From: Myxococcaceae bacterium
GTDB taxonomy: Bacteria > Myxococcota > Myxococcia > Myxococcales > Myxococcaceae
Direction of reading: 5' to 3'
Length of the DNA stretch: 64,000 bases
Assembly: GCA_016926755.1 (NCBI GenBank)
Contig: JAFGNZ010000031.1
Location: 1 to 64,000 of the forward strand
A model generated the notes under the pieces. The model made no database searches and had not been told where the DNA came from. It saw only the letters and a program-made list of their open reading frames with translations. A program made the translations under genes and the position numbers. Below, in pieces: positions 4,939 through 46,885 of this stretch; within the stretch, counting starts at the first letter, position 1; each line of letters begins with the position of its first letter.

Positions 4939-7176
4939 TCAGAGCCGCAGGCCGAGCTGCACCCCGGGCCAGTACTGAATCGTGTTGTCCCGGCCGAAGG
5001 AGCGCTGGCGCACCGGCAGCGTCGTCAGCTTGCGATGATCCTCCGGCCGGAAGGCGAGGCAGGTGTTGTACGTGGGCCCGGCGAACACGGCGAACCGCCG
5101 CGCCACCTGGAAGCCCAGCATCGCCCGCCCCTGCGTCAGCAGGTTCTGGCCCTCGAACGGATCCTTCATCATGTGCACCGTGTTCACCACCGCGTCCAGG
5201 TCCAGCCAGAAGCGGGAGCCCAGCGGAAGGTGCACGCCCAACCCCAGCCCATAGCTGAAGCGGTCCAGCCGATCGTCCGGCCCCATCCCCGCCACCAGCG
5301 TCGTGTACACGTACTGGCCGCTGAACTTCACCGCCACGTTCGTCAGTTGGATATCGCTGGACCAGATCTCCAGGTGGAGTTGCCCCTTCTCCTCGAAGGT
5401 CAGCAACCCCAGCGGCACGCCCCGCACCTCCTCGGCCACGTTGATCACCCCCACCTGGGCGCCATTCACCACCTTGCCCACGTTGATCACCCCCACCTGG
5501 GCCCCCGTCACATCCCCGCTCACGTTCAGCACCGCCAGCTGCAGGCCGTTCACGCGCTCCGCGCGGTTGAAGCCTGCCGCCGCCTGCAAGCCCGTCATCC
5601 CACCGCCCACCCAGTTCCCCCCCGCCGAGGCCTGCAACCCTTGAAAGTCCCGCCGCGCCATGTTCACCAACGCAGTCGCCTGCAACCCCAGCACGTCCCC
5701 CCCCGCCACGTTCACGCCCGCGGCCATCTGCAAGCCATCCACCTCCCCGGTCGCCACGTTCACGCCCGCGGCCATCTGCAAGCCATCCACCTCCCCGGTC
5801 GCCGCGTTCACGCCCACGGCCATCTGCAGCCCGCGCAGGCCCGCGCCCACCGCGTTCACGCCCACCGCGGCCTGCAGGCCTCGCGCCTCCTCGCTGTAGG
5901 CGTTGGACACCAGCGCCAGCGCCACGCCTCCGGCCAGCGCCGCGCCGTCGTTCATCACCCCGAGCGCCACCTGGTTCTCCACCGGCAAGCCCCCAGCCGC
6001 CGCCGCGTTCACGCTCACCCCCGGCACCAACCCCAGGTTGAAGGGCACCCGCTTGCGGCCGCCCACCCCGCGCGCCTGCACCTGCGCCACGGGCGCATCG
6101 GACGGCCCCCCCAGCACCTCGCCGCCGCGTGACACCGTGGCCTCGCTCAGCACCGAGGCGAACTCCCCCGGTGTCACCGGCGTGCGCTGGCCCTCGGCCA
6201 GGAGGAAGTTCGCCTCGGACACGGCCCCGTTCAGCTCGCGCCGCACCTGGTAGCGCCCGGGCGCCAGCCCCAGCTCCGTGGGCCGCCCAGGCACCTTCAG
6301 CAGCTCCACCACCAGCCCGCCTGCCTCGTCTCGCACGAAGAAGCGGCCCTCCAGCTCTTGCGTCAGCACCAGGCCCGCGGAGGTGGCGCGCAGGTCCGTC
6401 ATCACCAGATCGCCCGTGCCCGCAAGCTCCATGTCATAGGCCGGGTGCTGGGGACCGCCCTGGGTGCGCTCGGTGCGCGCCAGCGTCTCGTGGAAGGCGA
6501 ACTGGTAGGCCTCGTTGAGCGTCACGCGCCCGTCCCGCGTCACGTCCGCGGCGCCGCGCAGGCCGGAGATCAGGTGGTGGGTGAAGAAGGAGCCGCCCAC
6601 CCGATCAGACTCCTGTGAGGCCTCATCCGCGCTCGAGGAGGTGAGGATGGCGTGGCCCTTCACCTGGCTGCCCACATCCACGAGGAAGGCGGGGCGCGGG
6701 GAGCCGCCCTTGCGGCGCGCGAAGGCCCCCGAGGCGCAGGAGTCCAGCACGGCGATGCGCACGTCCGCCGGCAGGCTCGCCAGGGCGCGGCGCAGCTCGC
6801 CATAGTCCACGCGCTCGCCCTGGAGCAGCAGGGCCTCGTCGTCCGAGTGCCCCGAGTAATAAAGGAGCACCTCCACGCGGTGGGCCCCGGAGGTGCGGGC
6901 GGACTCGATCATGCCCCTCACCCGCGCGAAGCCCTCCATGAGCCCCGCGCGCCCGGTGTCCAGCAGCAGCACCTGATCTGCCGCCTCCACCCCGCCCAGC
7001 TCGCCAAGCACCTTGGCGAAGGCGCGCGCATCCGTGGTCGCGTAGCGCAGGCGCACGCGCTCGGGGCCTCCATCATTCACGCCCACCAGCAGCGCCAGCC
7101 GGCGCACGGCCACGGGCGTCTCCGCGGCGGACACTCCAGCCACCAACAGCGTCAGCAGCACCAGCACTCGAGTCAT
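4939..7176 (-). CDS. Exported caspase-like peptidase with GLQ repeats and beta-barrel-like C-terminus
   Basis: A 745-residue protein with a short signal peptide (residues 1-18). Residues about 25-260 are a peptidase C14 caspase-like domain: H110 in YYSGHSD and C147 in DSCASGAF form the expected dyad. Residues about 431-590 are around ten degenerate repeats of the form G-L/A-Q-x-A/V-x-G-V/I-N-x-A, which predict a regular beta structure. The remaining 150 residues alternate hydrophobic and aromatic residues and end in LGLRL, like an outer-membrane barrel. The protease would therefore act outside the cytoplasm. It starts in the stop of the anti-sigma-like gene (ATGA), so the two are translationally coupled. 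The substrate is unknown. Confidence 0.82.
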   Translation of the reverse strand: MTRVLVLLTLLVAGVSAAETPVAVRRLALLVGVNDGGPERVRLRYATTDARAFAKVLGELGGVEAADQVLLLDTGRAGLMEGFARVRGMIESARTSGAHRVEVLLYYSGHSDDEALLLQGERVDYGELRRALASLPADVRIAVLDSCASGAFARRKGGSPRPAFLVDVGSQVKGHAILTSSSADEASQESDRVGGSFFTHHLISGLRGAADVTRDGRVTLNEAYQFAFHETLARTERTQGGPQHPAYDMELAGTGDLVMTDLRATSAGLVLTQELEGRFFVRDEAGGLVVELLKVPGRPTELGLAPGRYQVRRELNGAVSEANFLLAEGQRTPVTPGEFASVLSEATVSRGGEVLGGPSDAPVAQVQARGVGGRKRVPFNLGLVPGVSVNAAAAGGLPVENQVALGVMNDGAALAGGVALALVSNAYSEEARGLQAAVGVNAVGAGLRGLQMAVGVNAATGEVDGLQMAAGVNVATGEVDGLQMAAGVNVAGGDVLGLQATALVNMARRDFQGLQASAGGNWVGGGMTGLQAAAGFNRAERVNGLQLAVLNVSGDVTGAQVGVINVGKVVNGAQVGVINVAEEVRGVPLGLLTFEEKGQLHLEIWSSDIQLTNVAVKFSGQYVYTTLVAGMGPDDRLDRFSYGLGLGVHLPLGSRFWLDLDAVVNTVHMMKDPFEGQNLLTQGRAMLGFQVARRFAVFAGPTYNTCLAFRPEDHRKLTTLPVRQRSFGRDNTIQYWPGVQLGLRL
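5707..5812 (-). repeat. Near-identical tandem 48-base units inside the caspase gene
   Basis: Two consecutive units, plus a diverging third, encode GVNVATGEVDGLQMAA-type repeats. The near-identity at DNA level, compared with the diverged flanking repeats, suggests recent duplication or gene conversion and possible copy-number variation. It is coding and in frame. Confidence 0.75.
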
Positions 7177-9665: not shown

Positions 9666-13829
<4,164 letters not shown>

Positions 13830-13832
<3 letters not shown>

Positions 13833-13848
13833 GGCATCCTCCAAAGGA
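13830..13848 (-). promoter_or_regulatory. Ribosome binding site deciding the NRPS-TE GTG start
   Basis: On the minus strand CTTTGGAGGATGCCGTG places GGAGGA five bases before GTG (codon 13832-13830). The protein following it, VLEKLYANVAKLPPEKQKLL, is the usual beginning of such modules. This supports GTG over the ATG at 13967. Confidence 0.6.
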
Positions 13849-13970
13849 GCGTCCGCCGCCGGGCGACGGACTCCAATTGGTGTGGCGCCCCGGCGAGGAG
13901 CGCGGGAAGACCGCCCGCAGTCCCGCGCGGTGGCGCTGCGGGGCCGGCGGGCGGTCGGAGGGGTCATGCC

Positions 13971-15551
13971 TCAGCGGGCCAAGACGACGTGCTCGTCGAG
14001 GTAGGCCGTGACTCTCCCGGAGCCGAGGAACTCGCGCACCGTGGCGATGATGTCGCACAGCGGCGAGTCGTCACGGTAGACCGGCACGAGCTCGGCAAGC
14101 ATCTGGTGGAAGCGCCGCGTCAGCGGGCTGTACTCGCCGACATCCTTCAGATGAGCTGCCTGATGGCAGGCGCCGAGCATTACCGCCATGATGTTCTCGA
14201 TATTGTCGGCGAGGCGCAGCGACTTGCGGGCGGCGATCAGGCCCATGCTGACGATGTCCTGGTTCTGGCCGTTCGACGGGAGCGACTTGATCGACGCGGG
14301 CGCCGCCAGATCGAGGTTCTCCGAGGCGATGCTCGTGGCCAGGTATTGGCCGCCCTCGTAGCCGGAGAAGAGGCCTGGCTCGCCGCTCGCGAGGAAGGGC
14401 GAGAGGTGGCCGTTCAGGTGCGGATCGACGAGGCGGTTGAGCTGGCGCTCCACGAGCACGCCGATCTCGGCCAGCGCGATGTTGAGATAGTCGCAGGCCA
14501 TCGCCACGTACTGGCCGTGGAAGTTGGCCCCATGGAAGCTGTTCTCGGGGCGATCGAAGAAGAGCGGGTTGTCGTTGCAGGAGTTGAGCTCCTCCTCGAC
14601 GATGCGCTTGCAGAAGTCGAGCGTCTCGATCACGGGGCCGATGACCTGCGGGATGCACCGCAGCGAGTAGGCGCTCTGCAGGTGGATGCCGGAGTCGGCG
14701 ACATCATCGCCGCCGACACGCTCGGAGATGGCCTTCATGATGTCGGCATGCTCGCGGGTGCGCTCGCTGCCGGCGAGCAGCTCGCGCATCACCTCCGCGA
14801 CGAGGATCTGGCCTCGGTGGTTCTTGAGCTCGTGGCCCTCGTGAGCGAAAGGACGAGTCGAGCCGTGCAGCGCCTGCACGACGTCGGCGCTGGCGACCAG
14901 CGACAGGCGGGCCAGGCGGTAGGCCTTGACCAGCGCCAGCGCCGCGGCGCCGGTCATGCCAGAGGTGCCGTTGATCAGCGACAATGCCTCCTTGTAGCCG
15001 AGCTCGAGGGGCTCCATCCCCACCTCGGCGAGCACGTCGGCGGCGGGGCGGAACTCGCCGTCACCCTTGCGGAGGTGGCCGTAGCCGATGAGCGGCAGCG
15101 CGAGGTGCGACATCGTTGCGAGATCGCCGCTGGCGCCGAGCGAGCCCTGCTCCGGGATGCGCGGCGTCAGGCCCAGGTTGAGCAGCTCGGCGATCATCTC
15201 GACAGCGCGCGGGCTGACGCCGGAATGGCCCTTCATGTGGCAGTTGATGCGTGCCAGCATCATGGCGCGGACCACGTCTGGTGCGAAGACCGGGCCGCCG
15301 CCGGCGGCATGGCTGAGCAGCAGGTGCCGCTGCAGGTCGGACTTGTACCTCGGCGGCACGATGAAGTTGATCAGCTCGCCGAAGCCGGTGTTGACCCCGT
15401 AGATCGGGTAGCTCTGCTGGCCCCATTCCTGGACGCGCTCGTAGGTGGCGCGCACCTTCTTGAGCTGACCCGCATCGAGCTCGACGCGCTCGTTCGCGAC
15501 GGCGACGGCGAAGACCTCATTGATAGTATGACCCTGTCCAGTGACTAGCAT
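13971..15551 (-). CDS. MIO-type tyrosine 2,3-aminomutase / ammonia-lyase
   Basis: A 526-residue member of the aromatic amino acid lyase/mutase family. The self-cyclising triad A140-S141-G142 (in GSLGASGDL) forms the MIO cofactor; Tyr51 in YGVNTGFGEL is the catalytic Tyr loop and His81 follows in SHAAGGG. Later stretches (FHGANFHGQYVAMACDYLN, then SIKSLPSNGQNQDIVSMG) resemble, from memory, myxobacterial tyrosine aminomutases such as CmdF of chondramide biosynthesis more than housekeeping histidine lyases. There are no other hut genes here, and it sits inside the NRPS operon. I infer that it converts L-Tyr to beta-Tyr for an NRPS module. A lyase giving coumarate is the alternative. Confidence 0.8.
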   Translation of the reverse strand: MLVTGQGHTINEVFAVAVANERVELDAGQLKKVRATYERVQEWGQQSYPIYGVNTGFGELINFIVPPRYKSDLQRHLLLSHAAGGGPVFAPDVVRAMMLARINCHMKGHSGVSPRAVEMIAELLNLGLTPRIPEQGSLGASGDLATMSHLALPLIGYGHLRKGDGEFRPAADVLAEVGMEPLELGYKEALSLINGTSGMTGAAALALVKAYRLARLSLVASADVVQALHGSTRPFAHEGHELKNHRGQILVAEVMRELLAGSERTREHADIMKAISERVGGDDVADSGIHLQSAYSLRCIPQVIGPVIETLDFCKRIVEEELNSCNDNPLFFDRPENSFHGANFHGQYVAMACDYLNIALAEIGVLVERQLNRLVDPHLNGHLSPFLASGEPGLFSGYEGGQYLATSIASENLDLAAPASIKSLPSNGQNQDIVSMGLIAARKSLRLADNIENIMAVMLGACHQAAHLKDVGEYSPLTRRFHQMLAELVPVYRDDSPLCDIIATVREFLGSGRVTAYLDEHVVLAR

Positions 15552-15605: not shown

Positions 15606-18600
15606 TCAGGTTGTCAGTTTGATGATGCCCTCACTCGCTTGTGAGAGCAGGCGTTCAGTATCGGCGTCAGAGAGATCTTCGACGCGGGAAAGGAGAGTAG
15701 CCAGCCGATTCTCGAGATCGCTGGCGTCGCCAGTGGGCTTCTTGGCGGCGAGGAACTCCGCGAGCTGGGCGACCGTGGGATGGCCGAAGACGTGCTGGAC
15801 GTAGAAGTCGACCCCCTCGCTGCTGCGCAGCCGGTTGACGAGGCGGGTGGCGAGCAGCGAATGGCCGCCAAGGACGAAGAAGTCGTCGTGACGGCCGACG
15901 CCTTCGGCGTCGAGGCCGAGGAGCTCCGCGAAGATGCCGGCGACGGTGCGCTCGAGCTGCCCCTGTGGCACCTCGTAGGGGCGCCCGGCCTCGACGTTGA
16001 GGGCGCGCAGGTGCTGGCGGTCGATCTTGCCATTGGCGAGGCGCGGCATGGCCTCGAGCCAGACCAGCGCCGACGGCACCATGAAGCGCGGCAGCTCTTC
16101 GCCGAGGGCGGCGAGCACCGTTGCGGCGCTGGCCTCGCCGGCGGGGACGGCGTAGGCGACGAGGCGCTGCGTGCCGCGCTCGTCGAGAACGACGACGGCG
16201 CATTCCTCGACCTCCGGCCGGCGGCCGAGCACGGCCTCGACCTCGGAGATCTCCACCCGCAAGCCGCGGATCTTCACCTGGCCGTCGGTGCGGCCGAGGA
16301 GCTCGAGGGTGCCGTCCGGGAGCCAGCGGGCCAGATCGCCCGTGCGGTAGACCCGGTCCGGGTAGTCGTCGTGCAGCGGGTTCTGCACGAAGGCGCGCTC
16401 GGTGAGCTCCGGCATGCCGTGATAGCCAGCGGCCAGGAACGGCGAGCGCACGAAGATCTCGCCCGGTACGCCCGTGGCGCAGGCCTGGCCCTCGCCGTCG
16501 ATGACGAAGAGGCGGCAGCCGTCGACGGGCGTGCCGACCGGGACGCGCAGCCGCTCGGGATTCAGGTGCTCGATAGCGTGGCTGGTGACCAGGATCGACT
16601 CGGTCGGACCATAGACGTTCCAGAGCCGCGTCCGCTCGCCGAAGCGCTTCCGCCACGCGGCGGCGAGCGCGATGGGCAGGTCCTCCCCTGTGAGCAGGAC
16701 GGCGCGGAGATCGGCGGGGGCCTCCTCGCCGGCCAACGCCAGCAGCTCGCGGCAGAAGCTCGGCACCATCTGCACCAGCGAGATGCGCTCGTCCTTGAGC
16801 CACTGCAGCACGCGCGTTGGCTCCTGGCGCAGGTCGCGCGGGGCCACGGTGACGGTAGCGCCGGAGCAGAGGGCGCCGAAGACCTCGACGTAGCAGGGGT
16901 CGTGGCCGACGGAGATCCACTGCGCGATCGGCTGGCCAGGCTGGATGCCGAAGCGCTCGCTGAACCAGCGGATCAGGTAGTGGAAGCCGCCATGTGTCTG
17001 TACGATGCCCTTGGGCTTGCCGGTCGAGCCCGAAGTGTAGGCGACGTAGATCGGGTCATCGGGCCGCGGCGTTCGGCTCATGCCCTCGCCGGCGTCGTCC
17101 GCCTCGGGGTCGAGGCGCGTGGCGTCGATGAGGGCCGGAGCCCCCGCCCGGCGCCAGGCCTCCAGCGTCTCGGGGTGCCCGCTGGCGGCGGCGTGGACGA
17201 GCACGCGGGCGCCGACGTCGCTGACGATGTGGCGGATGCGCGCCGCCGGGTAGTCTGGCTCGAGGCAGACGAAGGGGCTGCCGGCGTGCAGCGCCGCGAG
17301 CATCCCCACCACGTGATCGAGCCCATTGCCGAGCAGCAGCGCCACCGGCGCTCCGGCACCACCGAGCGCGTCGATGTGAGCCGCCAGGCGGCGCGCCGCG
17401 CGGTCGAGCTGGCGGTAGGTCAACGTCCCCTCGGCGGCCGCCACGGCGGTCTCCTCTCCGCTGCGCTCCGCCCAGCGCGACACGTCCTGGTGGACGCCCC
17501 CCTCGGGCAGCGTCCACCGCGGCGGCGTGCGCTCGGGCAGCAGGCGCTGGCGCTCCTCGCCGAGCAGCATCGGCGCGCGGCCGACGGCGGCCTCTGGTGC
17601 TCCGACCAGGCTCTCGACCAGGGTGAGGAAGTGGTCGCGCAGCCGCTCCATGCTGGCGCGCTCGAAGAGCTCGATGTTGTACTCGATGGCGCCGGTGACC
17701 CGGCCGTCCGGCTCGTCCCACAGCTCGAGCGCCAGATCGACGCGCGCCGTCTCGGCCGGCGTCGGGTGCCAGTCGGTCTCGACGGCGTGGAAGGAGACCT
17801 TCCTCTCCGGCCGCTGGTTGAGGGCGAAGATGACCTGGAAGATCGGGTGACGGCTCGGATCGCGCTCCGGCGCCAGCGCTTCGACCAGCTTCTCGAAGGG
17901 CAGCTCCTGGTGCTCGTAGCCTTCGAGGGCACCGCGGCGCACGCGGCCGACCAGGTCCCCGAAGCTCGCTCCCGGCTCCAGCCGGGTGCGCAGCACGAGC
18001 ATGTTGACGAAGTTGCCGACGATCGCCTCCAGCTCGCTGCGGTCTCGGCCGGCGGTCGGCGTGCCCACGACGATGTCCTTTTGGCCGCTGTACCGATAGA
18101 GCAGGACCTTGAAGGCGGCGAGCAGGACGATGAAGAGCGATGCGTTCTCGCGCTTTGCCAGGCGGCGCACGCGCTGCGCCAGCTCGGGAGAGAAGGCGAA
18201 GGGCAGGTGCGCACCGCGGAAGCCCTGCAGCGCCGGGCGCGGGCGGTCGAGGGGCAGGGCCAGCGAGGCCGGGAGGTCCTTCAGGCGGTCGCGCCAGAAC
18301 GACAGCAGGTGCTCGAGCGAGCGGCCCGACAGGCGCTGGCGCTGCCACGCGGCGAAGTCCGCGTACTGGACAGAGAGCGGCTCCAGGTGGAGGGGCTCCC
18401 CGAGGCAGTGGGCGCGGTAGAGGGCGGTCATCTCCCCCAGCAAGATGCCCGTCGACCAGCCGTCGTAGATCATGTGGTGGAACACGAGGACGAGCAGGTG
18501 GCGCTCGTCCGCCAGGCGCACGAGGCGGGCGCGCCACAAGCATTCGGCGGAGATGTCGAAGCCGCGCTCGTCCTCCTCGCGGAAGATCTCCTGGAGGCGC

Positions 18601-20248
18601 TGGTCCTGGGCGCTGGCTGGGAGGTGCCGGAGGTCCTCCTGCACGAGCGGCACCGGCATCGACGCGTGGATCCGCTGAACAGGCTCGCCGTCGACGCTGG
18701 GGAACGTGGTGCGCAGGGGCTCGTGGCGCTCGATCAGGTCCGCCAGGCTCGCCGCGAGCCGGTCGGCGCGGAAAGGACCGGTCAGCAAGTACGGTGCGAT
18801 CGCCACGCTGTAGCTGCCGCGGTGCAGCTCATCGAGGAGCCAGAAGCGCACCTGCGCGAACGATAACGGGAAGTCGTCGGCACGGCCGTCCTCACGCCGC
18901 GCAAGGCGAGGGATCGTGGTGGCACGGCGCCCCTGCTTACGTTCCAGGAGCCGCGCCGCCAGTGCCGCCCGCTGGCCCGGCGAGAGCTCGGCCACACGGC
19001 GGGCGAGGTGGTCCCGGCGGGACGCGGGAGCGCTCGCCCGGGCGACGGCGGGCCGCCGCCCGCACACCCGCTCGAAGCAGCGCTCGAAGCGGCCGAGGTC
19101 AATGCTGTCGACGAAGGCGCGGGCCGCCGCGCGCGACTGCTGGACGAGGGCCTGGTAGTGCGCCCGGTCGCCCAGCACGCGGGCCAGCGCCTCCTGCCAG
19201 GGGCCGAGATCCTGCTCGGGGATGACCGGGATCGGCTTGGCGGACGGATCGGGTCGCTCATAGTCAACGATCGGCCGGACCGGCAGCAAGTACGGCACGC
19301 CGAGCTTGGCTTCGGGAATTCCGCCGACGTCGCTTGCCAGGACCGGCAGGCCGCGCAGCATCGCCTCGACGACGATGAGCCCGAACGCCTCGCCCCACAG
19401 CGACGGCACGAGCAGCACGCGGGCCTGCGCGAAGATCTCGTCGATACGCTCCCGCGGCTCGAGGACGGTGACGTTCGGCAGGCCAGTGATCTGCCGGCGA
19501 TCCTCGGTCTCGGTGCCCCAGGCGGCGACGGTGGCAAAGGGCACCTCCGGGAAGCGTCTCGACAGGCCGAGGAAGATCGATAGACCCTTGAGCGGTGAGG
19601 CATTGACGAGGGTGACGGCACCTCGGTCGAAGGACGGTTGTACTGCCGGATCGGGCTCCCCGTAGACCGGGAACGGCACCACCTCCGACGCGCAGCCCCC
19701 CCAGCGGGCGATGTAGTCACGCACGTACTCGCTGACGGTGAGGATGCCGGGCGTGCGCTTGAAGAGCGTGGTCTTGCGGCCGTCCTTGTCGAAAGCGGCC
19801 GGGCCGAAGGGCAGCGTCGCCTGCGAGTGGGCGAGGTAGATCACCCGCTCGGCGGCGGCGTCGAGGGCGGCGCTGTGGAAGAGACCCGTCTGGTCCTCTG
19901 AGACGAGGACGACGTCGGGACGGGTGGCCTCGATCAGGCGCCGCAGGCCCGCGTAGAAGCGCGGGTAGACGTCAAGGGTGAACTCCGAGACGATCCCGTG
20001 AACCTCGACCTTGCGATGGCGGTAGACGACGAAGTCCTGGTCCTCGCGCACCAGCTCGCAGCCCCTCTCCGCGAGCGAGCGATGCAAGATCTCGCGCTCG
20101 TCGGGCCGCGGCTTGATCGCCTCGTAGGCTGGCGCGTAGACGAAGCAGTCGTGGCCACGCTCGGCCAGACCCTCCATCAGCAGGCGATTGGCTTTGTGGG
20201 CGCCGCCGAAGGGGTAGAGATAGTCGATGAGCTGGATCAGCAGGATCC

Positions 20249-20252
<4 letters not shown>
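15606..20252 (-). CDS. Glycosyltransferase fused to NRPS module (GT4-C-A-T)
   Basis: A 1548-residue fusion. Residues 1 to about 390 are a GT-B glycosyltransferase of GT4 type: GGAHKANRLLMEGL at the N-terminus, nucleotide-side SPLKGL, and the EX7E motif in GEAFGLIVVEAM. A C domain (HHMIYDG from about residue 592), an A domain (A3 YTSGSTGKPKG near 1073) and a T domain (GGHSLL, Ser1465) follow directly. The A4 region reads VGHDPCYVEVFGAL instead of a usual FDxSxW, so the substrate pocket is atypical. The start at 20252 overlaps the upstream stop as ATGA and has AAGGGG before it. It is the second module of the line; the GT may glycosylate the carrier-bound chain or the product. No TE or epimerase. 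Confidence 0.9.
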
Positions 20253-30292
<10,040 letters not shown>

Positions 30293-30309
30293 CGGATTGT
30301 CCTCACCAA

Positions 30310-30453
30310 TTACCTCGGAAGAGTGTCAGACGAGGCTGGGGGACGGCGATTCCCCGGTCCGCGGCCCGGCCTGAACTGGAGCGCCACCTCGATGCGCGAC
30401 GAGCCGGCGTCGATGCTGTCCTGGATCAGCTCCCGGTAGAAGGCGAACGGATC
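30310..30453 (-). pseudogene. Fragment of GHKL/Hsp90-like ATPase
   Basis: This frame encodes DPFAFYRELIQDSIDAGSSR and then IEVALQFRPG, the N-box (REL-x-Q-x-S-x-D) of the Hsp90/histidine-kinase ATPase fold. Only about 45 residues remain, entered by frame change from the metallophosphoesterase fragment upstream. It is a non-functional remnant. Confidence 0.6.
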
Positions 30454-30454
30454 C

Positions 30455-30622
30455 GAACACCGCGTCGGGGAGCGGGGCGCCCCAACGCTCGGCCCGCTCG
30501 ATGTCGAGTAGGAACGGGTCCAGCACCAGCGTCCGGTGCGCCCGGGTCGTCGCGTCGCCGTGCCCGAAGTGGATGTCGGAGATATGAAGCCACGAGAAGA
30601 GCAGATCGCCAGCGCGCCCCAT
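30455..30622 (-). pseudogene. Fragment of calcineurin-like metallophosphoesterase
   Basis: From the ATG at 30622 the frame reads FSWLHISDIHFGHGD, the first metal motif (D-x-H) of calcineurin-like phosphoesterases, and then LVLDPFLLDIERAERWG. The frame loses similarity near 30455, where the GHKL ATPase fragment begins in another frame. The rest of the enzyme is missing, so the domain cannot be active. Confidence 0.62.
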
Positions 30623-30636
30623 GTTCCCTCAAGTGA

Positions 30637-30664
30637 GGGAGAGTCTAGAGACTCCCGCATAATA
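30637..30664 (-). promoter_or_regulatory. Candidate promoter/operator upstream of the biosynthetic operon
   Basis: An AT-richer patch contains TATTAT on the minus strand (30659-30664), a possible -10 box. It is followed by a 20-base near-palindrome (30637-30656, GGGAG...CTCCC, 8 of 10 pairs matching) where a repressor could sit. No good -35 box is seen. The patch lies about 350 bases before the 30292 start, so it could drive the broken phosphoesterase and read into the operon. Confidence 0.25.
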
Positions 30665-30683
30665 AGTGAAATCATCTTGTCGG

Positions 30684-31010
30684 CTAATTGGAGGCCGCCC
30701 CAAGTACGTATGGCGGCCGCTTCTCCTCCAGAACCCCCCGCAGCTTCGGGTCGCGCCCGTACACCTCATCCCCCACCACCCATGAAGGCCTCAGTCCTCC
30801 CTCCAAGGCCCTCTCCAGCATCTGCCGCGCCAGCTCAGGCTTGGTGCGGAAGAGGACCTCTTGCCCCGGCCCGGCCTCTCGACACCGCTCCGGCTCCGCG
30901 AACCAGTGCTCGGGCACGTACAACTCCCTGTCGATGAGTGTGTGCCCGCGCTCAGTGCAGTAGGCCAGGAACACTCCTATCTGCCAGTTTTCTACCTGGC
31001 CCGTCGTACC
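30684..31010 (-). mobile_element. IS701-type transposase fragment (DDE)
   Basis: The frame contains TGQVENWQIGVFLAY, TLIDRELYVPEHW, CREAGPGQEVLFRTKPELA and WVVGDEVYGRDPKLR, which follow the internal conserved blocks of IS701-type DDE transposases. GDEVYG holds a catalytic-type Asp. Both ends of the gene are missing and no inverted repeats are visible. It lies between the VgrG remnant and the phosphoesterase remnant. Confidence 0.75.
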
Positions 31011-31150
31011 GGTGGGCCTCGTTCTACTGGGGATGCTCACCGGATGGCCCCCGCTGGATCCTCCGGACGCTGTCGAGGCTGGGGGGGAGACGGGCTTGCC
31101 GCCAGGCATGCGGGCTCACCTGCTGCCGGGCCTGCCACGGCGACAGCAGC

Positions 31151-31592
31151 ACCAGCCCGGCCGTGCTCGAAGAAGAAGAAGATGCCTTCGGACTCGAGCA
31201 GCCGGAGCACGAAGTCCAGATCGGACTCGCGGTACTGCACGCAGTGCTCGCGCTTGGGGTAGTTGCCGGAGAGCGCCAGACGGTGCTCCACATTCCCCGC
31301 CGCCAGCACCTTGGCAACAATGTTCGGGACAGAGAGGTTCTGGAAGATGCGGCTGCGGCGGACGTGGCGCAGCTTCCCCAGGACCGGCCCGATCCGGACG
31401 CGATACTCGGGCCGGCCGTGATGCAAGCCCAGATCCGCCACCTCCTCCACCCAACCGTGGCGGCTCCAGGGAGGTGGGGAAGAACTCGACCAGGAACTCG
31501 AACGGCTCGGAGAGCGCCTCCTCGCCGCTCAGGCGAGCGACGGCGAGGTCCGCCGCTGCGAACAATTCCGCCTGGAGCTCGAATACGAGCCG
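31151..31592 (-). pseudogene. VgrG remnant, deleted and frameshifted
   Basis: Two frames give pieces of a VgrG N-terminal gp27-like region. The first, about 31592-31475, reads RLVFELQAELFAAADLAVAR and SEPFEFLVEFFPT. The second, about 31450-31151, reads [40 protein letters not shown] and EGIFFFFEHG. Roughly 60 residues between them are missing, and the downstream hub and spike parts are replaced by the transposase fragment. It is clearly inactive and shows that this island once had a third spike gene. Confidence 0.75.
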
Positions 31593-31704
31593 ATGGTCGC
31601 GAGCCACATCTCCACGAGATCCACGCGTCAGGACAGATTTCTGCCCCCTACCCGCACGAACCCCCCGCGTGCTATGCCATGTCTGGACGGAGACCTGTTG
31701 GGCT

Positions 31705-32289
31705 ATGACTTCACCCAGAGACCTTCCCCACGCAGGAGTTCCAAGCACCACCCGAGATGACCCCATCAATTCCCCACGTGTGGGGTGGCTCGTCGGGGTG
31801 AATGAGGCGGGGCTTCCGCTCGTGGACTTCCCTGGCAACCCAGCGGGGCCTTGTGGCGCCCGGAGGACCGTCTCTCTGGAGCCCGAGCTCTTGCAGCGCG
31901 CGGCCGCCCAGCACCCAGGGGTCGTGCTGCTCTTCGAGAATGGGGATCCACGCTTGCCGCTGATCATCGGCTTGGTCCAGACAGAGAGCGCCACTCCGCT
32001 GCTGGATGCGGTGCTCGCCGGATCGAGCGCTGAAGCTCCCTTGGCGCCAGCAAGTGCGCCGGAGCGGGAGGAAGCGCCACAAGCCGAGGATGTCCCAGCT
32101 CAGGCCGTGGAGGCCCACGTGGATGGCAAGCGCGTCGTCCTCGAGGGAGCGGACGAGATCGTCCTGAAGTGTGGTCAGGCCAGCATCACCCTGCGACGTA
32201 ACGGTAAGCTCATCATCAAGGGGACCTACGTCGAGACCCATTCCACCGGCGTCAACCGCATCAAGGGTGGCAGCGTCCAGGTCAACTGA
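31705..32289 (+). CDS. DUF6484 T6SS-associated protein
   Basis: A 194-residue soluble protein. The N-terminal part has VGWLVGVNEAGLPLVDFPGN, RTVSLEPELLQRA and VLLFENGDPRLPLIIGLVQ, an OB-like beta domain seen in T6SS loci. After an Ala/Glu/Pro linker the C-terminal part (VVLEGADEIVLKCGQASITL, RRNGKLIIKGTYVETHS, RIKGGSVQVN) is a repeating beta strand unit like the tip of VgrG spikes. It is probably a structural or loading partner of VgrG. It is followed after three bases by the TIGR02270 gene, and diverges from the VgrG remnant. The start is the first ATG in the conserved frame. Confidence 0.78.
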   Translation: MTSPRDLPHAGVPSTTRDDPINSPRVGWLVGVNEAGLPLVDFPGNPAGPCGARRTVSLEPELLQRAAAQHPGVVLLFENGDPRLPLIIGLVQTESATPLLDAVLAGSSAEAPLAPASAPEREEAPQAEDVPAQAVEAHVDGKRVVLEGADEIVLKCGQASITLRRNGKLIIKGTYVETHSTGVNRIKGGSVQVN

Positions 32290-33619: not shown

Positions 33620-35884
33620 TCAGTTCTCGGCGATCTTCGAGCCCTTGATGATGACATCACCGCTGGCGGTGACCTCGATCTTGGCGCCCTTGATGACCAC
33701 GTCCCCGTTCTTCTTCACCTCCAGGGTCGCCGAGCCCACCTTCAGGGTGAACTGCTCTTCGGCCACCAGGGAGATCTCCTTGGCGCTCAGCGTGTAGCTG
33801 TCCTTGGCGGCGTGGGAGAGCTTACCGCCCACGTTCAAGACGAGGTCCTTGTCCACCTTGAGGGTGCGGTTCTTCTCGATCTGCTCGGAGAGATTGCCGC
33901 CGACCTGCAGGGTGCGCGAGCCCTTCACCGTCTCGGACTTCTTGGCACCCACCGCCTCCACCTTGGCCCCGCCCACCTGCTCGGACATGAGGCCGCCCAC
34001 GAGCTGGTTGAGGGCCGCCCCCACGGTCACAGCATAGCCCCCGCCGACGTTGAGCAGCTTGCCCAACGCCACCGTCTCCGCGGAGGCCATCGCCACCGTC
34101 ACATTCTGGTTGCCGTTCACCGAGATGGACTGGTCGCCCACCACGGACTCGGTGTGGTTGCCCTGCACGGTGGTGGTGCGGTTCTTGACGACCGTCAGGC
34201 TCTGATTGCCGCCGATCATGCTGTCGTCGTTCTTGTTGACCTGCAGCGACTGGTTGCCCTCGATGGTGCGGCTGCGGTCCTTCCGGACGAGCAGCGTCTC
34301 GTTGCCCCGCACCTGCTGCGTCTTGTCGTTCTCGACGATGATGTTGAAGTCCTTCTCGGCGTGCAGGTACACCTCCTCGGAGCCTGCCGCGTCCTCGATG
34401 CGCAGCTCGTTGAAGCCGCTGCCGCCGGGGCTGGAGTTGGAGCGCAGCGTGCTCTGCGTCTTGTTGTCGGGCAGGGCGATGGGCGTGGGGTTGTGGCCGT
34501 TGTAGACGCTGCCGGTGACGAGCGGGCGATCCGGATCCCCCTCCAGGAACTCCACCACCACCTCCTGGCCGATGCGCGGCAGGTAGAGCGCACCCCAGCC
34601 GGGGCCGGCCCAGGCCTGGGCCACTCGGATCCAGCACGAGCTCTTGTCGTTGTTCTGGCCCTCGCGGTCCCAGTGGAACTGGACCTTGATGCGGCCGTGC
34701 TCGTCGGTGTGGATCTCCTCGGCAGGGGGCCCGACCACGATGGCCGTCTGGGCCCCGGAGATAGTGGGCTGGGGGGTGATGCGCGGGGGGCGGTAGGGGA
34801 CCTGGGAGGGGATGCAGACGAACTCGGTGCGGTAGGCCTCCTTGCTCTCCGAGGAGGCCTGCCCGAAGGTGAGGACCTCGGGCTGACGGCCCATGTGGCG
34901 GGCGGAGAGCACCAGGTAGTCCCGGTTCAGCGTGCCCACGGGGTGTTCGTCCAGCTCGAAGGTATAGCCCGCGACCAAGCGACGGCAGTTGCTGGCCCCG
35001 GTCGCCATCTCACTGCGCACCCGCAGCTCCTCCATGCGGACCTGGGCCAGTGTCCTGCCGGTGCCCAGCTCCGTGTAGCGGGCGGGGTAGTCGTAGATCT
35101 CGAGGTCCGGCTCACCATCCTGGGCGTGGGAGAGGGTGGAGAGATCCAGTGCGGGACGCAGGAAGTTGAAGTCCCTCAGGGCGACGGCGCCGGGCTGGAC
35201 CTCCACGCTCGCGGCGAACTCATGGATGGACTCACTGGCGGCCACCATGTTGCTCAGGTCGCGGAACACCAGGAGAGGGTCGCCGGGCATGGCCTCGCAG
35301 GTGGACGAGGCGTCGTTGAGGATCAGGGTGTGGGCATCCTCGGTGTGCTCGAAGTAATAGAAGATCCCCTCCTCCTCGAGCAGGCGTGAGACGAAGTCGA
35401 GGTCCGACTCGCGGTACTGAACGCAGTACTCGAGCTTGCGGTAGGAGCCCTGGAGCAACTGCTTGTGCTCCACCTTCGCTTCGTCGAGCACTTTGTGGAC
35501 GATCTCCGGGATGGTCATCTCCTGGAAGATGCGGCTTCGCCGGGTGTGGCGCAGCGTCCACAGGCGAGGCACCACGGTGATGCGGCAGTGCTGGCGCTCC
35601 GGGCCTCGGTTGGACTCCCAGCGCACCACGCGCGAGACGATGCCGTGGAAGAAGCGATCCGTCCCGTCACCCAGGTGCACAGTCAGCAGGGCGCTCTGGC
35701 CTAGCAGCTCCTTCTCGTCCAGTGAGACGTCCACCGGCGCGGCCAGGGTGACCTGGACGGAGTAGGGCTGGGAGACGGTCTCCTCGGCCTCGAACCCCAC
35801 CACGGCCAGCTCTCTTGCCGCATGGGGGCCAGCCTGGAAATCGAACTCAGCTTGATTTGCGAGGAGGGCAGCGGTGGCGACCAT
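33620..35884 (-). CDS. vgrG: VgrG spike protein 1
   Basis: A 754-residue T6SS spike protein from the ATG at 35884; the frame is open further upstream but crosses the divergent VgrG. The gp27-like N-terminus carries [39 protein letters not shown] and EGIFYYFEH. The gp5 OB-fold region follows with [20 protein letters not shown] and [19 protein letters not shown], then [11 protein letters not shown]. The C-terminal 250 residues are a long beta-helix of repeats such as [12 protein letters not shown] and QTVxGNxT-type strands, ending in [20 protein letters not shown]. There is no added toxin domain. It pierces target membranes and carries PAAR-type tips and effectors. Confidence 0.96.
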
Positions 35885-36037
35885 AGGGAAACCCCCTGCC
35901 CACAGTGTCATCGAGAGCGGTCGACACCACAAGGGCCGAACTGAAAAGAGCGGCGTTCGTGATATGACGAACTGGCTTCTGGCATCCGGGCGGAGGCGTG
36001 CATCGAGCGGCCCGGAGGCATGCCGCAGAGGGGCACT
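35885..36037. promoter_or_regulatory. Divergent promoter region between two vgrG genes
   Basis: A 153-base gap separates the two outward-facing spike genes and must hold both promoters. Around 35925-35965 it is less GC-rich than its neighbours. I find no convincing -35/-10 pair or sigma-54 (GG-N10-GC) site by eye. Confidence 0.4.
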
Positions 36038-38527
36038 ATGGCAGGCTCCAGCGTTCCAGCCTTCTCGTTGCGGGTGGGGCCCTTCGACCCGGGCGAGCTC
36101 ACCGTGGACAGCTTCGCGGGAGCGGAGGGGCTGAGCCGCCTCTATGAATTCCAGATCGACTTCCACCCCGCCGGGGATGTGCCCCTGGAGGCGCCGGAGT
36201 TGCTGGGCGCCGAGGCGCTGCTGACCTTCGAGGTGCCCGGCGGCGGCCCGCGCTTCCTCCACGGGAAGGTTCGCTCCATCAGCGCCCTGGGGCATCGCGG
36301 GGGGAGGGGGCGGTACCGCATCTGGGTGGTGCCCCAGCTGTGGTGGCTGACGCGCGTGCACCAGAGCCGCATCTTCCAGGGCAAGTCGGTGCCGGACATC
36401 CTCGAGGAGGTGCTGGGCGGCGCGGGCGTCGAGGTGAGGTTGTCGCTGAGCGGCAGCTACGAGGCGCGCGAGTACTGTACGCAGTACCGAGAGACGGACT
36501 TCACCTTCCTCAGCAGGCTCATGGAGTGGGAGGGGCTCTTCTACTTCTTCGAGCACTCAGAGAGCGGCCACACCCTGGTGATCGGGGATGCCCGCTCGGT
36601 GCATGAGCCGCTGCCGGAGGGGGCCGTGGTGCCGCTGCGGGAAGACCGCGGCCAGGCCACGGACGGTGAGTACCTCTCCGCCCTGCAGCGGGTGCATCGG
36701 CTGCGTCCCGGGAAGGTGCACATCAAGGACTACGACTTTGTGAGGCCCTCGCTGGACGTGTCGGGCAAGGGGCAGGACACCTCCCATGGCGTCGCCTCAC
36801 TGGAGGTGTATGACTACCCCGGTGAGTACGTGGCGCCCGCTGTGGGTAAGAGCGCCGCCAAGGTGCGCCTGGAAGAGCTGGTGCAGGCGGCGCGTACGCT
36901 GGAGGGAGAGGCGGTATGTCCGCGGCTGACTCCTGGCTACCGCTTCGAGGTGGAGGACGACGGCACCTATTCAGGCGAGTACCTGGCGGTGGAGGTGGTG
37001 CATACGGGCCGGCAGCCGGAGACACCCGGGGGCCGCGAGGCCATGGGCTCTCTGTACCGCAACAGGTTCAAGTGCATGCCGGCCGCGGTGCCTTTCCGTC
37101 CCAGGCGCACCACGCCCCTGCCGGACATTCCGGGGGTGCAGACGGCGACGGTGGTGGGGCCCGCGGGCGAGGAGATCCACACGGATGAGCACGGGCGCAT
37201 CAAGGTGCAGTTCCACTGGGATCGCGAGGGCCAGCGGGACGACAAGGCCTCGTGCTGGGTGCGCGTAGGCCAGGCCTGGGGAGGACCCGCCTGGGGGGCG
37301 TTGTATCTGCCGCGCATCGGCCAGGAGGTGGTGGTGCGGTTCCTGGAGGGCAATCCGGACAGGCCGCTCATCGCGGGCACCGTCTACAATGGAAGCAACC
37401 CGACACCTTATGTCCTGCCGGACGAGAAGACGAAGTCCACCCTCAAGAGCGCCTCCAGCCTGGGCAGTGAGGGCTTCAACGAGTTCCGCATCGAGGACGC
37501 CACGGGCGACGAGGAGCTCTACGCCCACGCGCAGAAGGACGAGAACCTCGTCACGGAGAATGACAAGGACCAGCAGGTGCGTGGCTATGAGGAGCTGCTG
37601 GTGAAGAAGGAGCGCTCCCGGACGGTGGAGGGCAACCAGACCTTGTCGGTGGGCTACGATGACGATAGCCGCGTGGAGGGCAACCAGACCCTGACGGTGA
37701 CGGGCAACCGGACCACCACGACGAAGCTCAACCACCTGGAGTCCGTGGAGAAGAACCAGACCCTCACTGTCGGCGGGAAGTTCACCTCGCTCGTCACCCA
37801 GGCCGCCGCGGAGACCGTGGGGGCCGCGAAGGCGCTCTCCATCGGCGCGGCCTACGGCGTCAACGTCGCCCTGGCCCTCAATGAGGCCGTCGGCGGCCTC
37901 AAGTCCGTGGAGGTGGCCGCGGCCCAGAAGGAGATCGTCGCCGGGGCGCGTCAGGAGAACATCGTCAAGGACAAGGAGGTCAAGGTCGGTGGGGACTGGG
38001 ACAGCCGCATCAAGGGGTACCTGGCGCTCACCATGGGCAAGGATCTGGATGAGCAGATCGGCAAGGAGAGCCTGCTCTGGGTGAAGGAGCCGACGATCTT
38101 CCATGCCAGGTCCTTCTCGCTCAAGGCAGACAAGTTCTCCCTCATCGTCGGGGGGCACCTCATCCTGAGCGTGGAGCAGTCGGGCAACGTGGCCTTCAAC
38201 GTCAAGACGTTCACCTTGGAGGGCTCGGACATCAAGCTCAAGGGCAAGTCCATCAAGAAGCAGGCGGCCGGCTCGTTGAAGGACAAGTCCGTCAAGCCCA
38301 AGGAGCTGAAGGATCTCGAGGATCCCGAGCCGCTCAAGGTGGAGGTCGAGCTGAAGGACACGGAGGGCAAGCCGGTGAAGGATCAGGCCTTCGAGCTCCA
38401 CTTCCCCGATGGCACCATCAAGAAGGGCAAGGTGGATGGGAGCGGCAAGGCCGTGGTGGAGAAGGTGCCCCCAGGGGATTACCGCATCGTGTTCCCGGAG
38501 CTCGAGGCCCGCATCAACAAGGGCTGA
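36038..38527 (+). CDS. vgrG: VgrG spike protein 2 with C-terminal extension
   Basis: An 829-residue VgrG. I prefer the ATG at 36038 (GAGGGG spaced five bases before it) to the in-frame ATG at 36020. It has the same layout as VgrG 1: [40 protein letters not shown], the OB region [20 protein letters not shown], then [12 protein letters not shown] and the repeat needle with [11 protein letters not shown]. The last about 65 residues differ: after a Lys-rich linker, [20 protein letters not shown] and [16 protein letters not shown] form a small Ig/transthyretin-like beta domain. That tip probably docks or presents the next gene's product. It is 40 bases upstream of the amidohydrolase gene. Confidence 0.95.
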
Positions 38528-44720: not shown

Positions 44721-45803
44721 TCAGCTGGGTTGTTCCACGACGCAGGCCGTCCGCTGACCACCGCTCGCCGAGGCCCAGAGCAACGCCCGCGCAGCAGGAG
44801 CATAGCCGCGCGCAAAGGCGCGGGAAACCATGGCCAGGTAGAGCCCGCCAGACGCGGCTCCTACATCTCCAATGCAGTCGCTCGGGTGCCAGAGCACCCG
44901 CTGCAGCTGCAGCCCGGAGAGCTCCGCCATGCGCGTGTAGGCGAGCCCCCACTCGTGGGCGCGATAGCTCTCCCCATTGAGATCACAGATCGTCCACATG
45001 GGCTCTGACTGAGGCACGGCCTCCACCGCGCTCCGGATGGCCTGCACGAGCCCCCGCCCCGAGGAGAGGCGGTCAGACTCGATGGTCCGCTCCTCCGTGG
45101 CGCTCCCCAGGCTGCGGATGCGCGCGAGCACGGGCTGTCCTCGGGCCTTGGCCTGCCTCGCGGTCTCCAGGAGCACCACCGAGGCGCACTCGCCCGGAAT
45201 GAAGCCGTCGATGTTCCTCAAGCTCTTCAGGCGCCAGGTCTCATCCAGCCAGCGCAGGGTCGCTTGATCGAGGTAGGACTCCACCCCCACCAACACGCAG
45301 AAGCGGCTGGCCCCCTGCCGCAGGCTCTGCACCGCGTTCATCAGCGCGGTGAACATTCCCGTCTGGCCCTCGCGGTAGAGCTGTGGGGGCTCGGCGGGGG
45401 AGATGGCCAACCGCTCGAAGTACGGGAGGACGAAGTCCTGGCCCGAGGCGAGCCCTGGCCGTCCGCCGTGGGAGCCCGGCAGGCTGAAGAAGTAGCGCGT
45501 CGCGGCGAGATCCTTGCGCGCCATCCTCGCCCCCGCCACCAGCTCCTTCATGGGAGGCACTGCGAGCTCCAACAGCCGCTCCACATGCGAGCGCGGCTCG
45601 CGGAAGGGAGGGACGGGAGCCACGATGGCCTTCTCGGCCTCGGCGAGCGGAGGCTCCGGGAGCCGGGGCAGGAAGGAGGGGTGCTCCTGGAGGCGGGTGA
45701 TGGAGGCCCGGAGCGCGGCGCAGGTGGCCGCCGCGCTGAGCCCGACGGGGGAGATGAGCCCCAGGGCGGTGACCGCCACATCGCCTGACTCTTGCCGGCT
45801 CAT
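44721..45803 (-). CDS. Ketosynthase/thiolase-like T6SS-associated protein, probably non-catalytic
   Basis: A 360-residue thiolase-fold protein. It starts VAVTALGLISPVGLSAAATC like a beta-ketoacyl synthase and keeps FIPGECASVVLLETARQAKA and DVGAASGGLYLAM, which match fold elements. At the nucleophile elbow, where ketosynthases have a Cys (xACSSS), it reads REGQTGMFTAL, so the catalytic Cys is absent. Genes of this kind stand between DUF2169 and DUF4150 genes in several T6SS loci, where they are thought to act in assembly, perhaps as adaptors. It overlaps the DUF2169 stop by four bases. It is unrelated to the polyketide operon. Confidence 0.75.
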   Translation of the reverse strand: MSRQESGDVAVTALGLISPVGLSAAATCAALRASITRLQEHPSFLPRLPEPPLAEAEKAIVAPVPPFREPRSHVERLLELAVPPMKELVAGARMARKDLAATRYFFSLPGSHGGRPGLASGQDFVLPYFERLAISPAEPPQLYREGQTGMFTALMNAVQSLRQGASRFCVLVGVESYLDQATLRWLDETWRLKSLRNIDGFIPGECASVVLLETARQAKARGQPVLARIRSLGSATEERTIESDRLSSGRGLVQAIRSAVEAVPQSEPMWTICDLNGESYRAHEWGLAYTRMAELSGLQLQRVLWHPSDCIGDVGAASGGLYLAMVSRAFARGYAPAARALLWASASGGQRTACVVEQPS

Positions 45804-46810
45804 GACTCCTGCATCCGCCCGGTGACGACGGCCTCATCGATGTACAGGAAGGAGCGGGCACAAGGCATGGTCACTTTCCACGAGAGGATGATCCGCTCCT
45901 CGTCCGGCTCGATGATCACGGTCTCGAGGAGCGGGGTGTACTGTGATCGCTTGCCCCGGACGGAGAGGGTGGCCTCCAGGGTCCAGCGCGGAAGCGAGAA
46001 GGACAGGGGCCCCCGCTTCGAAGCTCCGTTGATGTGGACCGGCTCTCCTCCTCGCAGGTGCGGCCGGGCGACGAGGCCGCGAGGGGCTGCATTGAAGAAG
46101 CGCTCATCGAAGTCTCGAGGCGCCAGCGGGAAGCGATCCTTCTTCCAGGCCTCGTCATAGGTGCCCGCGTAGCTGGAGCGAGGGGGCCACGAGGGGGCGA
46201 TGAAGCCGAAGCCCGCGGGTTCGGGCCTGCTGTCCCAGGAGCGGATGAGCGCCTCCGGAGACTCCAGGTTGGGCAAGGCCATGCCTTCCAGGCGCTCCGC
46301 CGAGCTCCGTGCCGCGAACCCCGTCCCTACGGGGTTGCGGGCGTCGTGCGCTCCGTTCTTGGCATCCACCCCGCCGAAGGCCCGCTCGTAGATGAGGGGC
46401 ATGCTCTGGAAGGGAACGGGGTGCGACATCTGCCAGGCGCCCACGGAGCGGAACCATTTGCGCTCACCGAAGACCCGGACCACCTTCTGGAGCCCTCCGA
46501 CCTTGAGGGTCAGGTCCATGGTCTTCACGGTCCCGCTCGGGGGGTAGGCATGTCCGATCAGGATGATGTCCGTCCCCGGCTTCGTTGGACAGCTCTCGGA
46601 GGCGTAGAGGATGCTGGAGGAGGCGGGGGCTCCCCGGTACTCATCGCTTCGGGTGACCGGGACCTGGGCTTGCGAGAGGGGGAGCGGGCCTCGCGCGTTG
46701 CGGAGGTTGAAGGTGCCCTTGATCAGGAGCACGGCCGCCTCGCCTCCCTCCGCATCGATCCAGGGGAAGAGCGCGACCTCCAGAGGCGTCTTGTTCCGGA
46801 TGCTCAGCAA
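45800..46810 (-). CDS. DUF2169 T6SS effector-loading protein
   Basis: A DUF2169 protein of about 336 residues. Hallmarks are LSIRNKTPLEVALFPWIDAE at the N-terminus, AVLLIKGTFNL, DIILIGHAYPPSG, VRVFGERKW, MPLIYERAFGG and RNPVGTGF. DUF2169 proteins are chaperones or adaptors that help load PAAR-like proteins and effectors on VgrG. The first gene of the operon (DUF2169, thiolase-like, DUF4150, protease, lipoprotein and small protein). There is no ATG near the conserved N-terminus; I chose TTG at 46810 because GGAG stands six bases before it. A TTG at 46855 would add 15 residues. Confidence 0.85.
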   Translation of the reverse strand: MLSIRNKTPLEVALFPWIDAEGGEAAVLLIKGTFNLRNARGPLPLSQAQVPVTRSDEYRGAPASSSILYASESCPTKPGTDIILIGHAYPPSGTVKTMDLTLKVGGLQKVVRVFGERKWFRSVGAWQMSHPVPFQSMPLIYERAFGGVDAKNGAHDARNPVGTGFAARSSAERLEGMALPNLESPEALIRSWDSRPEPAGFGFIAPSWPPRSSYAGTYDEAWKKDRFPLAPRDFDERFFNAAPRGLVARPHLRGGEPVHINGASKRGPLSFSLPRWTLEATLSVRGKRSQYTPLLETVIIEPDEERIILSWKVTMPCARSFLYIDEAVVTGRMQES

Positions 46811-46885
46811 GAGGTTCTCCGTCAGGAGAGGCGGGCGCCTGGGCAGGGCACCCAAGCGCTGAGCATAGCACCGGGTGGGGCAGGA

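Follow-up and report, generated by a model that had tools for sequence, protein, structure and literature searches.

A GT4-type glycosyltransferase fused in frame to a nonribosomal peptide synthetase module in a Myxococcaceae bacterium, with a probable role on carrier-bound tyrosine

In the usual view of peptide natural products, sugar is added late and separately. Other tailoring activities of nonribosomal peptide synthetases (NRPSs), namely methyltransferase, formyltransferase, sulfotransferase and FkbH domains, are embedded in frame and are thought to act on carrier-bound units, an embedded sulfotransferase being described for dysinosin DysB (PMC6520454). The gene studied here, at 20252..15606 (-) of a 64,000-nucleotide stretch of Myxococcaceae DNA (assembly GCA_016926755.1, contig JAFGNZ010000031.1; the whole stretch is called the window), encodes a glycosyltransferase (GT) domain in frame with condensation (C), adenylation (A) and carrier (T) domains, and differs from those embedded domains in its predicted reaction, glycosyl transfer. 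AerI and the AerI-like GTs of aeruginosin clusters likewise belong to NRPS clusters, in one case with FkbH-glycerate loading, but they are separate proteins and are proposed to act on Choi (PMC10143770, PMC6520454). The enfumafungin-type fungal terpene cyclase also carries a GT domain on a core biosynthetic enzyme (PMC8403587), but this system is fungal, makes a terpene and has no carrier, and serves as an analogy only. In the literature searched (mostly outside subscription journals) we found no GT-C fusion or comparable embedded GT domain, characterised or otherwise; the fusion is therefore provisionally novel, its parts being of known kinds and their arrangement new.

The open reading frame (ORF) list and its translation give one uninterrupted frame of 1548 codons from ATG to stop. 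A mechanically called ORF opens earlier, at GTG 20825, but that stretch overlaps the upstream NRPS gene, whose stop the ATG at 20252 overlaps as ATGA. The 1548-residue protein is ordered GT4, NRPS linker helix, C-A-T, and all its Pfam matches exceed the curated cut-offs (GT4-type 16-314, Condensation 459-905, AMP-binding 925-1278, AMP-binding_C 1337-1409 and PP-binding 1436-1501). The GT4 domain (19056..20252 (-), residues 1-399) retains an intact EX7E motif at residues 288-296 (EAFGLIVVE) and is followed by a linker (18879..19055 (-), residues 400-458) with a helix, LSPGQRAALAARLLERK, resembling the helix that precedes C domains. Beyond this lies a full extension module, comprising condensation domain C2 (17538..18878 (-)) with the HHxxxDG motif HHMIYDG at residue 592, adenylation domain A2 (16026..17480 (-)) with the core motifs YTSGSTGKPKG at 1072 and NGKID at 1407, and carrier domain T2 (15750..15947 (-)) with its serine, Ser1465, within LGGHS. 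GC content at the third codon position is 0.85-0.96 along the entire gene, codons 401-500 at the GT/C junction included, and because it is unbroken there we see no sign of a hidden frameshift or of a lost stop/start. An error hiding a stop/start between GT and C was one of two findings that the initial annotation had named as refuting its proposal of an in-frame fusion. Open frame, Pfam matches, motifs, codon composition and the predicted structures described below bear that proposal out, and the GT-NRPS fusion is confirmed as genuine.

AlphaFold predicts the GT alone with high confidence (pLDDT 94.2, pTM 0.92) in a GT-B fold. The GT-C model has a pLDDT of 88.6 and places the helix LSPGQRAALAARLLERK in a weakly predicted linker (399-410 and 441-443) that joins GT to C. 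Among the 50 matches listed in a Foldseek search with the GT-C model there were solely NRPS (C-domain) structures, and the GT was therefore folded alone; its model then matched MshA, PimA, BshA and HepE in the PDB with Z of 30-31.6 over 329-339 residues. The window GT thus has the GT-B fold and the EX7E motif of these retaining GT4 enzymes, although it shares only 15-24% identity with them and is NRPS-fused and carrier-adjacent. In an alignment of 117 GT rows, E288 is invariant and E296 is present in 105, with D in 11 and Q in one.

Relatives of the GT are scarce in the lineage of the host. Searches of 95 further family members' genomes (E up to 1e-15) gave no match, and those of 194 other genomes of the phylum (E up to 1e-12) a single relative, with at most the first 9 or 19 candidates per genome being scored. 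A GT in another genome of the phylum (L013:9542-11101, G194) closes with a helix resembling NRPS linkers and stops there, with sugar-nucleotide genes adjoining. Three plasmid records carry full-length relatives at about 40% identity, among them a Streptomyces sp. NBC_00441 plasmid (L011) whose version of the same GT4 group is the actinobacterial one and lies with an acyl carrier protein (ACP), an EryCIII-like GT, a thioesterase (TE), FkbH-T, a condensation protein and sugar genes. A scan of species genomes with the single GT sequence gave no match; with an alignment of four relatives it gave 157, and the best 80 of the 157 loci form the comparison set. Locus architectures were read with small purpose-built hidden Markov models, part of them checked with Pfam or NCBIfam. 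The tree used below holds 75 of the 117 GT rows, chosen by us, and was built by a quick method.

The neighbours of the GT suggest what it does. A carrier domain stands immediately before the first GT in 59 of the 80 loci, the preceding element being FkbH-T in 38, A-T in 17, T alone in 4, a contig edge in 3 and none of these in 18. Codes of the A domains were read by alignment, with positions placed through GrsA numbering, and the upstream domains carry codes that we take to be for Tyr, Ser or Thr in 17 of 17 readable cases, the window's included (an eighteenth, in L043, is incomplete). DAST(V/I)AAVCK, presumably Tyr, occurs in the window, eight Paenibacillaceae and four Herpetosiphon; DVWHxSLxDK, presumably Ser, in L049, L066 and L081; and DFWNIGMVHK, presumably Thr, in L060. 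Among the remaining A-type domains of these loci, 44 in number and including a few fatty acyl ligases, only 4 have such codes; of the 23 A domains that come first after the GT, 1 does (Fisher test against the upstream set, 2e-10). Collapsed by hand into lineages, the comparison is 7/7 upstream against 1/12 downstream (p 1.6e-4). Action on the downstream amino acid was considered and rejected on the count of one hydroxy residue in 23. At the position of GrsA 239, the A1 domain that precedes the window GT has Ser, and one study reports that GrsA W239S favours Tyr about threefold relative to Phe (PMC11355689).

The tree and homologues of the upstream gene follow the same pattern. The window GT belongs to a starred clade (98) with 16 rows, of which 13 are Tyr systems; a single change on the tree accounts for these 13 (support 79), and the full set of acceptor labels takes 4 changes where shuffling gave a mean of 15.4. 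In myxobacteria, six homologues of the upstream gene and its aminotransferase line have neither a GT nor a Tyr-type first A domain (their first codes being DAENIGAITK, DILQLGLIWK and DTKDLGVVDK), whereas the window has both together.

These observations lead us to a model in which the GT probably O-glycosylates a hydroxy unit on the preceding carrier, here Tyr on T1, before the fused C domain uses that unit. The N-terminal domain would be a retaining GT4 of a subfamily working on carrier-held thioester units, and its acceptor would be the beta-amino-fatty-acyl-Tyr, or simply Tyr, that the upstream protein holds on T1. A nucleotide sugar would donate its sugar to the phenol oxygen of this Tyr, after which C2 would join the glycosylated donor to the amino acid selected by A2 and carried by T2, to give ultimately a 3-amino-fatty-acyl-(O-glycosyl)Tyr-X-Y with beta-Tyr at X or Y. 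We infer from genes and models each of the main steps, namely that the GT is catalytic, that it transfers to the Tyr oxygen, that it does so ahead of condensation and not on a released peptide, and that the product has this structure. The initial annotation had raised the possibility of a covalent GT acting on the chain while bound to its carrier; carrier adjacency and the hydroxy-amino-acid codes upstream suggest that such a substrate is right.

Several points weigh against this model. No carrier lies immediately upstream in 18 of the 80 relatives, three of which (L054, L069 and L077) have a T frame at most about 2 kb upstream, and one starred GT clade, mostly of planctomycetes and proteobacteria, is without a carrier; only some members of the subfamily are therefore carrier-linked. 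The 17 codes are non-independent, 12 coming from two bacterial families, and the Tyr code string found no match in the literature searched, the support for its label (from GrsA W239S) being indirect. The window GT's nearest row by path on the tree is L037, which has an FkbH-T (glycerate) and not a Tyr context. Finally, there is no sugar-nucleotide gene among the scanned genes of the window.

The fusion itself is variable in evolution. GT and C are joined in frame in 11 of the 80 loci (L037, L042, L049, L050, L051, L060, L065, L066, L067, L071 and L081), which by record title belong to Acidobacteriota (8), Bacillota (1), Chloroflexota (1) and Cyanobacteriota (1); nine of the 11, like most FkbH-T loci, come from metagenome assemblies or are of indeterminable origin. 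On the 75-row tree the GT-C state takes 8 changes, of which starred branches require at least 3, and repeated gain or loss of the fusion is therefore probable; it is rare in its own lineage and recurrent across phyla. The fusion is thus not unique, which corrects the initial annotation. That annotation had named many characterised homologous fusions as a refuting finding; uncharacterised ones exist, and none that has been characterised appeared in the literature searched. The covalent link is real but not essential, as most relatives have the GT as a separate protein in the same place. In Paenibacillaceae and Herpetosiphon, three genes encode A-T, GT and C-A-T-TE; one Herpetosiphon C-A-T-TE protein (L045:11305-16758) has an in-frame C-terminal Major Facilitator transporter domain. 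Separate GTs of Tyr systems terminate in a helix such as LPPEKREKLLATLQERR, which on visual comparison resembles the fused-form linker and the N-terminal part of the C protein that follows. A strict regular expression for this helix recovered 10 of 15 tails, the pattern being too strict, and the printed tails were relied on instead. The tail helix fits GTs that were split from, or adapted to, NRPS proteins.

A second architecture joins the GT to a thioesterase. GT-TE fusions make up 34 of the 117 GT rows, and the 13 on the 75-row tree form one clade. The minimal operon FkbH-T / GT / GT-TE is common in Acidobacteriota, and compact forms of it, FkbH-T / GT / GT-TE or FkbH-T / GT-GT-TE, are seen at L055, L057, L062, L075, L087, L089 and many other acidobacterial loci. 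Because FkbH-T is the sole loading domain found by our models in most of these operons, carrier-bound glycerate is the likely acceptor there; L080 and L107 are exceptions, since a C domain and one resembling acyl ligases also occur upstream. The compact acidobacterial operons look like a complete carrier-based route to diglycosyl-glycerate. In the isolate Paenibacillus curdlanolyticus (L037:8651-19072), two consecutive GTs follow FkbH-T and the second is fused to C, which suggests a disaccharide on glycerate.

The alternative that best withstands these data, and which we consider unlikely, is that the GT acts on the finished, released peptide and that the fusion serves co-expression and proximity only. 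Most known glycopeptide GTs act after release, and many relatives of the window GT are separate proteins. However, in loci that have a carrier the GT comes after the hydroxy-unit carrier and before the next C or TE, the GT-C and GT-TE fusions are arranged like assembly-line domains, and the separate GTs keep an NRPS-like tail helix, all of which argue against this alternative.

It is less probable still that the sugar goes elsewhere on the T1-bound chain, for instance to the beta-amino group of its fatty acid. The cluster does hold a beta-aminotransferase line, and a review reports fructose on cystomanamides C and D (PMC9581180), but most GT relatives have no adjoining beta-amino acyl line and yet have a hydroxy unit upstream. 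We had suspected a cystomanamide relative and set the idea aside, since the review passages on these compounds give fructose and name no GT domain, and the six aminotransferase-line homologues lack a GT. Cystomanamides are glycosylated myxobacterial lipopeptides whose synthetase also builds on a beta-amino fatty acyl chain, but the peptide differs from that of the window. A different peptide also sets apart the iturin-type synthetases, which we take to have the same beta-amino-fatty-acyl line.

A much poorer explanation is that the GT glycosylates free tyrosine and A1 loads the glycoside; the GT could encounter free Tyr and no direct point favours this, whereas A1 shares its Tyr-type pocket code with 12 other systems and FkbH systems are described in one source as not loading free glycerate (PMC8949500). 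An inactive GT domain, or a fusion created by misassembly, is hardly credible: the window's fusion comes from a single genome and 95 others of the family gave no match among the first candidates scored, but codon pattern and catalytic residues are intact and the same fusion recurs in 11 other loci, the P. curdlanolyticus isolate among them.

The fusion lies within a lipopeptide-type cluster of an assembly of 9.6 Mb in 409 contigs. The upstream gene (20249..30292 (-), 3347 aa) encodes fatty acyl ligase (FAAL), ACP, ketosynthase (KS), acyltransferase (AT), ACP, class III aminotransferase, C1, A1 and T1 in that order, and its FAAL loading, KS-AT and aminotransferase before C-A-T are those of a beta-amino-fatty-acyl line. 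A1 (20618..22057 (-), code DASTVAAVCK) is the adenylation domain immediately before the GT, and T1 (20375..20563 (-)) is the proposed holder of the acceptor Tyr. Downstream of the fusion lie a tyrosine 2,3-aminomutase (13971..15551 (-); 521.7 bits to TIGR03832, whose curated cut-off is 501), whose relatives in Streptomyces carry the annotation cmdF, and the last module, C3-A3-T3-TE (9666..13967 (-), A3 code DVWTIGVIWK). For A2 the alignment script gave DPVQLTVL and a gap; the last V of the code, DPVQLTVLVK, was placed by eye. No confident residue match was found for the A2 and A3 codes, and searching plasmids with A2 yielded no informative name; a suspected likeness of A2 to the beta-Tyr code of SgcC1 could not be confirmed. 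Colinear logic would make the product 3-amino-fatty-acyl-Tyr-X-Y, with beta-Tyr probably at X or Y because of the aminomutase in the cluster.

Around the cluster, a transposase fragment (DDE_5) lies at 30684-31109, just upstream of the first cluster gene, and inspection of 30250-31800 for inverted repeats gave nothing useful. Two overlapping ORFs in opposite orientation at 33620-38527 both resemble type VI secretion spike (VgrG-like) genes; a DUF6484 protein is close to them and a DUF2169 gene is at 45800-46855. A Glycosyl hydrolase family 1 gene (57155-58585) is about 27 kb away from the cluster, and a protein with a caspase-like (Peptidase_C14) domain is encoded downstream of it at 4939-7176.

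By record title, the GT4 group occurs in six named phyla besides that of the window, the GT standing alone or being fused to C or to a thioesterase. We regard it as an even call whether it represents a widespread and undescribed class of assembly-line GT4 enzymes acting on carrier-bound Tyr, Ser, Thr or glycerate. If it does, the minimal FkbH-T / GT / GT-TE operons would make diglycosyl-glycerate on a carrier, and NRPS glycosylation would be programmable in the way that methylation or epimerisation are. Gene order would then predict both glycosylation and the residue that receives it, through the position of a GT between T and the next C; glycosylation would be transferable between assembly lines; and the gating of C domains on a glycosylated donor would become testable.

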